Positions 16,160 through 17,618 of a stretch of DNA of 64,000 nucleotides are shown here, piece by piece (the first letter of the stretch is position 1; each line of letters starts with the position of its first letter). Source of the stretch: Spirochaeta africana DSM 8902 (GTDB taxonomy: Bacteria; Spirochaetota; Spirochaetia; DSM-27196; DSM-8902); the NCBI RefSeq assembly GCF_000242595.2, contig NC_017098.1:310001-374000 (forward strand), read 5' to 3'. The translations under genes were made by a program, and so were the position numbers. The notes beneath the pieces were generated by a model. The model did not search any database and was not told where the DNA came from. It saw only the letters and a list, made by a program, of their open reading frames with translations.

Positions 16160-16189
16160 TTGACGATAGCGGGTGACGGGGCGTATAGT
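16160..16189 (+). promoter_or_regulatory. sigma70-like promoter for the YlbF-ArsR cluster
   Basis: TTGACG (16160-16165), 18-nt spacer, TATAGT (16184-16189). A GATAGC hexamer (16165-16170), the half-site of the palindrome at 16702-16714, lies in the spacer and could be an operator. Confidence 0.65.
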
Positions 16190-16229
16190 TGGCTGTTACA
16201 TGCGTGGTGATGCATATATCGGAGGTAGT

Positions 16230-16667
16230 ATGAATACGAATACAGCGAGCGCTGATACAGATACACGAGCGATGGTGGTGACTGCGGCGGGGCAGCTGGC
16301 CGAGCGGGTGCGCGATGGTGAGGTGTACCAGGCGTTTCAGCAGCAGGTAAGTACCCTGCAAAGCGATAGTGAGGCGCTGGGGGTGCTGCAGGATTTTCAG
16401 TATGAACAGCAGCAGCTGGCGGCGGCGCAGCAGTACGGGATGGCGAGCGAGGAGCAGATTCGCGAGTTGCAGGAAAAAGAGGCCAGCATGATGGCACATC
16501 CGGTGTTGGCGGGTTTTTTTGCGGCACAGCAGGCATTGATAGATGAGCTTTCCGAGGTGAATGCGGCGATCAGCGCCAGGCTGGGATACGATTTTGCCAA
16601 GCTGGCTCAGCCGGCTACTGGCTGCGGGAGCGGCTGCGGCAGCCATGGAGAGGGCGGCTGCTGTTAA
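16230..16667 (+). CDS. YlbF/RicF-family protein with Cys-rich C-terminus (1)
   Basis: 145 residues, almost all helical, matching the YlbF/YmcA (Com_YlbF) family: a helix with GEVYQAFQQQVSTLQSDSEAL, a DFQYEQQQL segment and a LIDELSEVNAAISARLGYDF segment. The last 15 residues are a flexible tail with four Cys and a His (GCGSGCGSHGEGGCC). In Bacillus subtilis YlbF, YmcA and YaaT form a complex that carries Fe-S clusters and supports RNase Y function; Cys residues near the ends of the small subunits are involved. The ATG at 16230 has GGAGG 4 nt upstream; the earlier ATG at 16173 lacks one and lies too close to the promoter. It is followed by a second family member and an arsR gene. Confidence 0.82.
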   Translation: MNTNTASADTDTRAMVVTAAGQLAERVRDGEVYQAFQQQVSTLQSDSEALGVLQDFQYEQQQLAAAQQYGMASEEQIRELQEKEASMMAHPVLAGFFAAQQALIDELSEVNAAISARLGYDFAKLAQPATGCGSGCGSHGEGGCC

Positions 16668-16701
16668 ATGCGGCTGCTGTCAAGTAGCGGCGTTTGAAGG
16701 T

Positions 16702-16714
16702 GCTATCAGATAGC
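16702..16714. promoter_or_regulatory. 13-nt perfect palindrome, candidate ArsR operator 1
   Basis: GCTATC-A-GATAGC in the gap between the two YlbF-family genes. A diverged copy with the same core TATCAGA lies at 16779-16793. Confidence 0.45.
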
Positions 16715-16778
16715 GCGGTCTGGCGTGTGTAGCAGGCCAGCCACGGCGGCGGCTAACGAGTAGCGGGATGCATGGAGC

Positions 16779-16793
16779 TGTTATCAGACAGCT
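16779..16793. promoter_or_regulatory. inverted repeat, candidate ArsR operator 2
   Basis: The wider inverted repeat AGCTGT (16776-16781), 6-nt loop, ACAGCT (16788-16793) contains a 15-mer that matches 16701-16715 at 12 of 15 positions. It lies 15-30 nt before the second YlbF-family start codon. Confidence 0.4.
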
Positions 16794-16807
16794 GCCAGGG
16801 AGAGTTT

Positions 16808-17206
16808 ATGTTAAGTATTGAAATCAGAGAACAGGCGGCCGGTGTGGCCGAGGCAATTCAGGCTGCTCCGGAGAGTCAGCGGTATATTGAGGCGCAGAGC
16901 GAGTACAGCGGAGATCCGGAACTGATAGATCTGCGCAATCGGTATACCGATCTGATTCAGGATTTCCAGCGCAAGCAGACCGACGGGAGCTATACCCAGC
17001 AGGATATCGATGCGGTGCGTGAGGTGCAGATGCAGGTGAACGGGCATCGTATCACGCAGGCGGTGATAGGTGCTCAGACAGAGCTGCAGGATCTGCTGCA
17101 GGCATGCAACCAGAAGATGACGGCGGTGCTGGGGATGAACTTTGCGCAGATCGCCCGATCTGCGTCGGCGTCGTCGTGCGGCTGCGGCGGCAGCTGCGAC
17201 TGTTGA
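16808..17206 (+). CDS. YlbF/RicF-family protein with Cys-rich C-terminus (2)
   Basis: 132 residues of the same helical family as the gene upstream (AEAIQAAPESQRYIEA, then DLRNRYTDLIQDFQRKQ, then NQKMTAVLGMNFAQIA). It ends CGCGGSCDC, four Cys in nine residues, so a metal or Fe-S ligand role is likely for the tail. The ATG at 16808 has GGGAGAG a few bases upstream; the in-frame ATG at 16772 has none. The 140-bp gap before it carries two related inverted repeats. The ArsR gene starts 8 bp after its stop. Confidence 0.82.
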   Translation: MLSIEIREQAAGVAEAIQAAPESQRYIEAQSEYSGDPELIDLRNRYTDLIQDFQRKQTDGSYTQQDIDAVREVQMQVNGHRITQAVIGAQTELQDLLQACNQKMTAVLGMNFAQIARSASASSCGCGGSCDC

Positions 17207-17213
17207 CGGGCAC

Positions 17214-17618
17214 ATGAATATGAGCCGGGAGCGTGAGCCGGGGGCGGATTATGCCGAGGTGTTCAAGGCCTTGGGGGATCCGCTGCGGGTGCGGATATTT
17301 CAGTTGCTGCTGCGGGTGGGCGAGCCGGTGTGTGTCTGCGAGATTGTGGATGCGCTGGAGCAGCCGCAGTATCAGATTTCCCGGCATATGGCGGTGCTGA
17401 AGCGTGCCGGGCTGGTGGGTTACCGGCGCGAGGGAACCTGGGTGTATCACTATCCGCTGCGGCCGGCCGGGTTCAGCGATGGTGTGTGGGGCGAGCTGCA
17501 GCAAAGCTTCGCCGGTGATGAGCTGCTGGGCGAGGATCTGCGTCGGCTGCAGGCACGCATGCGACTGCGCGAGGCGGGGCGCTGCGTGGTCGGGCTGCAG
17601 GAGAGCTGTGACTGCTGA
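17214..17618 (+). CDS. ArsR/SmtB-family metalloregulator
   Basis: 134 residues. A winged-helix domain (VFKALGDPLRVRIFQLLLR, then QYQISRHMAVLKRAGLV, then REGTWVYHY) carries the ArsR inducer motif CVCEI, which in ArsR binds arsenite or antimonite. The protein adds a C-terminal ESCDC, like the tails of the two preceding proteins. It probably represses this operon and is released by a metal(loid) or oxidant. An ATG at 17220 is an equally good start. No arsenite permease or arsenate reductase is adjacent, which is unusual for a classical ars operon. Confidence 0.9.
   Translation: MNMSREREPGADYAEVFKALGDPLRVRIFQLLLRVGEPVCVCEIVDALEQPQYQISRHMAVLKRAGLVGYRREGTWVYHYPLRPAGFSDGVWGELQQSFAGDELLGEDLRRLQARMRLREAGRCVVGLQESCDC

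Follow-up and report, generated by a model that had tools for sequence, protein, structure and literature searches.

What do two small YlbF-like proteins with cysteine-rich ends do beside an ArsR repressor in Spirochaeta africana? An earlier note on this DNA had offered two answers: RNA processing under metal or redox control, together with YaaT (RicT), or handling of metals by a system whose layout departs from the classical ars operon. The locus was analyzed in a window of 64,000 nucleotides, which is the whole stretch of DNA under study, and positions refer to this window unless a genome position or another contig is named. The two YlbF-like open reading frames and the arsR gene, with the Cys tails that the note had read from them, were present at the expected place, all on the plus strand. 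The ylbA gene (YlbF-A, 16230–16667) encodes a Com_YlbF protein of 145 aa with tail cysteines at positions 132, 136, 144, and 145 and the C-terminal end CGSGCGSHGEGGCC. The ylbB gene (YlbF-B, 16808–17206) encodes a Com_YlbF protein of 132 aa, which has tail cysteines at 124, 126, 130, and 132 and ends in SCGCGGSCDC. The arsR gene (17214–17618) encodes an ArsR/SmtB repressor of 134 aa that ends in CVVGLQESCDC. Only 7 bases separate the ylbB stop from the arsR start, so these two genes are very likely co-transcribed. The ylbA-ylbB intergenic stretch (16668–16807, plus strand) is 140 bases long and is predicted to form RNA hairpins (fold z-score −2.7); repeated TATCAGA motifs were seen within it.

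A sigma-70-type promoter, TTGACG (16160–16165) and TATAGT (16184–16189) on the plus strand with an 18-nt spacer, matched the consensus at 10 of 12 positions. It was the sole promoter found in 16000–18100 and was assigned to the ylbA-ylbB-arsR transcript. At the presumed transcription start lies an operator-like palindrome, ATGC-N8-GCAT (16200–16215; ATGCGTGGTGATGCAT), as the candidate ArsR site. The promoter of the earlier note was thus retained, whereas its operator-like half-site proved to be a full palindrome.

Com_YlbF proteins are generally annotated as 'competence regulators'. The window pair scored 63.3 and 62.0 bits against Com_YlbF (PF06133), above the Pfam cut-off of 23.9, and no other Com_YlbF gene was found in the S. 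africana genome. The similarity between YlbA and YlbB is low (29% over 86 aa). Their predicted models, built on shallow alignments, displayed the five-helix RicA/RicF/YheA fold, with 6prk, 2pih, 2oeq, and 2iaz as best matches (TM about 0.5–0.8) and the RicA-RicF crystal structure on top. The tails (130–145 in YlbA and 116–132 in YlbB) were predicted to be disordered.

Com_YlbF was above cut-off in 19 of the 46 genomes of the order. Wherever the contigs of the relatives were long enough, ylbA was followed by ylbB on one strand, and the A and B proteins formed two clades in the tree (support 100/98). A Cys-bearing C-terminal tail was present in all 40 relatives read from these 19 genomes, with ends such as GGCC, CGC(H), CNCG, CSC, CGTC, SCCG, and others. 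Core identity among the relatives is merely about 25–40%, yet the terminal Cys is kept; therefore, the Cys end is a family property and not a product of chance. Loss of the tails in orthologues, which the earlier note had named as one observation that would count against it, was not seen for the YlbF proteins. Selenocysteine read-through was considered and rejected, since the 'TGA inside' flags came from alignments that overran the stop, and Cys is the last residue that each ORF encodes.

In Bacillus, C134 and C146 of RicF and C141 of RicA ligate a [4Fe-4S] cluster together with C167 of RicT (PMC6751060), and RNA processing was therefore a sensible idea at the outset. According to it, YlbA and YlbB would be orthologues of RicA/RicF (YmcA/YlbF) that join RicT in an Fe-S complex steering RNase Y, with ArsR control as a metalloid or redox response. 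The two families share the fold and the presence of two paralogues with C-terminal Cys, and the YlbA tail (C-X3-C-X7-CC) is spaced much like the Fe-S-ligating RicF tail (C-X3-C-X5-C-X1-C). The yaaT (RicT) gene that the note had proposed to look for elsewhere was indeed found at 2.22 Mb of the genome (L001, 1051–1995) and carries the full CX4CCX30CX4CC motif; the genome also encodes RNase Y. However, RicT and the pair were uncoupled when the co-occurrence of PSP1 (RicT) and the YlbF pair was scored across the 46 genomes of the order. In family f4 (G102, G131, G139, and G161–G164), PSP1/RicT was found in 0 of 7 genomes and the pair in 6 of 7. Outside this family, RicT was present in 38 of 39 genomes, most of which lack the pair, and its motif was unchanged with all six Cys kept. 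The Haloferax volcanii control gave a YlbF match and no PSP1 match. Therefore, RicT does not predict where the pair occurs, and neither this co-occurrence nor the RicT Cys motif supported RNA processing of the RicAFT type, so this half of the earlier note was abandoned. The tail spacing also differs from that of RicA/RicF and is reduced to GGCC in ars-linked relatives, and the window pair is apparently controlled by ArsR. Furthermore, the HcsL model discussed below scored 59 bits against 30 bits for the YlbF/YmcA competence models, and the neighbours are ars genes and not RNA-processing genes. A Ric complex is thus an unlikely explanation of this locus.

The ars context of the relatives points instead to an unstudied arsenic-handling part. 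In one spirochaete locus (L046), arsP is followed by arsR, arsD, double arsA, a zinc ribbon gene (product ending GSGCC-stop), a gene for a thioredoxin-like protein of 97 aa, ylbA (GGCC-stop), and ylbB, with arsC on the opposite strand. L061 has the same order from arsR to ylbB, and L185 and L060 hold partial copies truncated at the contig edge. The zinc ribbon gene, ylbA, and ylbB of L063 and L065 diverge from arsR, arsD, arsA, and the 97-aa gene, with their own promoter and a palindrome in its spacer. Genomes with double ArsA carried the pair in 9 of 11 cases (10 of 11 counting L185) compared to 10 of 35 others (p = 0.004, kinship ignored). ArsD co-occurs with the YlbF pair in these relatives, which indicates that the pair does not replace ArsD. 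In S. africana, double ArsA was absent from the genome and an ArsD gene was not seen at the window locus. With an alignment of seven sequences as a profile query, the matches were environmental spirochaete MAGs only; judging from isolate names, several relatives come from soda lakes. The zinc ribbon is FmdB-like and ends in Gly-Cys-Cys-stop (L046, 6779–7006; also L061, L063, L065, and L185), and is a third CC-ended protein of the ars operons.

The 97-aa protein (L046, 7024–7317; homologues in L061, L063, L065, L173, L179, L180, L185, and L188) adjoins arsA and in several operons lies between arsA and ylbA, with genes for low-molecular-weight ArsC nearby. This arrangement would fit a thiol-disulfide relay, in which the Cys tails and the thioredoxin-like protein feed electrons to ArsC or keep the Cys of ArsA, ArsD, or ArsR reduced and carry no metalloid. 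However, neither Pfam nor NCBIfam gave a match for the 97-aa protein, so its thioredoxin-like fold is a guess. A search of the haloarchaeal plasmids described below did not recover it, nor did one search of the S. africana genome that was run without a positive control, and arsC in S. africana is unlinked and lacks the palindrome. We consider such a relay somewhat less probable even than the Ric complex.

The best NCBIfam match of both window proteins was HcsL (NF041416, 'halo-CC-star'), at 59.1 and 36.1 bits, below the curated equivalog cut-off of 140 bits, so that neither is an HcsL by this cut-off. YlbA shares the Cys-Cys end of HcsL (GGCC), whereas YlbB ends in CDC. HcsL itself has a GGGCC end and is placed with the YlbA proteins in the tree (100/98). 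YlbB gave no match to the HcsS profile (NF041415) up to E = 1; HcsS (about 63 aa, mostly CC-ended) aligns with the C-terminal half of YlbB, a homology visible by alignment only.

Among 25 haloarchaeal plasmid records, the order arsD-arsA-hcsL-hcsS was found in all 23 annotated ones, including pNRC100 of Halobacterium NRC-1, and also in the unannotated L167. On these plasmids, the hcsL start lies inside the arsA stop and hcsS comes next. In Halobacterium NRC-1, hcsL-hcsS lies directly 3' of arsA in the arsADRC cluster, which is arsenite-inducible and whose deletion makes cells sensitive to both As(III) and Sb(III); the arsB gene on the chromosome has no role (PMC3600143). No publication on hcsL or hcsS was found in the open literature searched, and the names come from NCBIfam. 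HcsL/HcsS and the window pair thus have in common a Com_YlbF-type pair, Cys-ended tails, an A-type gene followed by a B-type gene, and arsenic loci. They differ in that the window pair is bacterial, that YlbB is full length, and that the pair is linked to arsR and not to arsD-arsA. Two small genes separate arsA from the downstream pair in L046 and L061. A further CC-ended product, an Rdx-family protein with an SPGCC end, was seen in one haloarchaeal ars locus (L164, 7660–7965).

The window ArsR passed PF01022 and scored 83.7 bits on the metalloregulator model of NCBIfam, above the cut-off of 55, and its CVC motif lies in helix alpha3, as in type-1 CVC As(III) sensors. Its identity to 18 ars-type ArsR proteins from the order is 42–53%, and many of those proteins are encoded at the head of spirochaete ars operons. 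The CVC of alpha3 (CVCE; C40 and C42) and the Cys of 'CVVG' (C124) were conserved in all 18 orthologues. The final SCDC, with the extra C132 and C134, occurred in none of them; it is private to the window protein and was rejected as a conserved metal site. The Cys tail that the earlier note had seen in ArsR therefore holds for the C-terminal Cys, together with CVC, and not for the last four residues.

A palindrome matrix was built from the sites of the relatives alone. The window palindrome scored 22.9 bits on it, and the runner-up in the 64-kb window scored 9.0. ATGC-N8-GCAT occurred at 25 sites in 14 ars loci compared to one site in 174 kb of other loci. It was found at the ars promoters of most relatives, often within the −35/−10 spacer and often doubled at a 23-bp spacing. 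A site of 19.9 bits lies about 40 bp upstream of S. africana acr3. The longer form ATGC-N8-GCATAT had seven exact sites genome-wide, with the highest scores for those before ylbA and acr3; the remaining five were mostly inside ORFs and were taken as chance. The palindrome ties the window locus to the acr3 of the genome, and it strongly suggests that this ArsR would repress both ylbA-ylbB-arsR and acr3. The acr3 gene (723.5 kb) and arsC (2015.6 kb) are both away from ylbA-ylbB-arsR, and pump and arsenate reductase do not share one operon as in a classical ars operon. S. africana arsC is 68% identical to the arsC of L046, and the palindrome was looked for upstream of it and was absent. The genome thus resembles type-1 CVC ArsR/Acr3 systems in the CVC of alpha3, the palindromic operator-like site, and the presence of acr3 and arsC. 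It differs from them in its scattered genes and in a regulator that adjoins ylbA-ylbB and not the pump. With the arsR-arsD-arsA operons of relatives in spirochaetes and haloarchaea and the palindrome shared with acr3, the second proposal of the earlier note, a metal-handling system unlike a classical ars operon, gained support.

We therefore favor, with a probability of roughly 60%, the reading that ylbA-ylbB-arsR is an arsenic-responsive operon whose ArsR-controlled heterodimer binds As(III) through vicinal-Cys tails and passes it to efflux. What stands firm in this reading is the link of the family to arsenic. In the proposed mechanism, ArsR, with CVC in alpha3 and its C-terminal Cys, would hold the ylbA promoter through the ATGC-N8-GCAT palindrome, and the same protein probably controls the distant gene of the Acr3 arsenite pump. 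When As(III) enters, it or a like thiophilic ion would free ArsR, and ylbA-ylbB-arsR and acr3 would be expressed. By analogy with RicA-RicF, YlbA and YlbB may form a helical heterodimer. The thiolates of its two flexible tails could jointly coordinate As(III) or Sb(III) and would make a natural three-thiol site for As(III). The pair would then buffer As(III) and present it to the efflux machinery, namely ArsD/ArsA where present and Acr3 in S. africana. It would probably work like a metallochaperone or metalloid buffer of the ars system. ArsD, a small Cys-pair protein of the same operons, has a similar As(III)-delivery job to the one proposed here, whereas its fold is unrelated to that of the YlbF pair. 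The missing ArsA, the scattered acr3 and arsC, the arsC promoter without the palindrome, and the RicF-like spacing of the YlbA tail count against the arsenic reading.

So do 13 pairs of the relatives that lie outside ars loci and lack the palindrome, several of them beside Mrp/ApbC, NfnA/B-like, Dus, or lipoyl-E2 genes. The job of the pair may therefore be broader. NfnA/B-like ferredoxin-NADP oxidoreductase genes adjoin the second YlbF pair of G065 and the pair of G080 (L047 and L048). In L050, from the RicT-less family, an Mrp/ApbC Fe-S carrier gene (8091–9200) lies directly 5' of the pair, and the same gene family occurs in L059. ArsA and Mrp/ApbC are P-loop ATPases that are related to each other and hold their cargo at Cys sites, and pairs follow arsA in ars loci as they follow the Mrp/ApbC gene here. 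The pair might accordingly be a general adaptor of thiophilic cargo for deviant-Walker-A ATPases, with As(III) for ArsA and Fe-S clusters for Mrp/ApbC elsewhere. However, the Mrp neighbour is confined to one closely related genus-level group, S. africana has no ArsA, and adjacency is not interaction. This adaptor appears the most doubtful of the explanations considered.

The favored reading has consequences beyond S. africana. ArsA-type pumps belong to textbook arsenic resistance, while the haloarchaeal genes that overlap arsA, among them those of the model Halobacterium NRC-1, carry a placeholder name only. Their tie to a bacterial operon with a candidate operator suggests a likely function for hcsL/hcsS. 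If the reading is true, Com_YlbF includes a RicT-independent, metalloid-handling branch. More tentatively, the pairs may represent a new structural class of arsenic metallochaperone across two domains of life, in which RicA/RicF-like heterodimers use their paired vicinal-Cys tails to deliver As(III) to ArsA, or to Acr3 in cells that lack ArsA, with the zinc-ribbon GCC-stop and thioredoxin-like proteins as further parts. In that case, a thiophile-binding tail would be the older trait, and the Fe-S tails of Bacillus Ric proteins would be one of its uses.

Downstream of the locus, a double universal stress protein gene (18017–18892, plus strand) begins 398 bp past arsR and is possibly associated with it. 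Universal stress homologues occur within the ars loci of two relatives (L173 and L180), so this gene may belong to the arsenic response. Immediately 5' of it, a tandem array of a 13-bp unit (CCGGAGCCGCCAT, 8.8 copies) occupies 17886–17999. The locus is also adjoined by a Na/phosphate cotransporter gene with PhoU domains (19049–20779), for which a tie to the arsenate/phosphate balance is conceivable.
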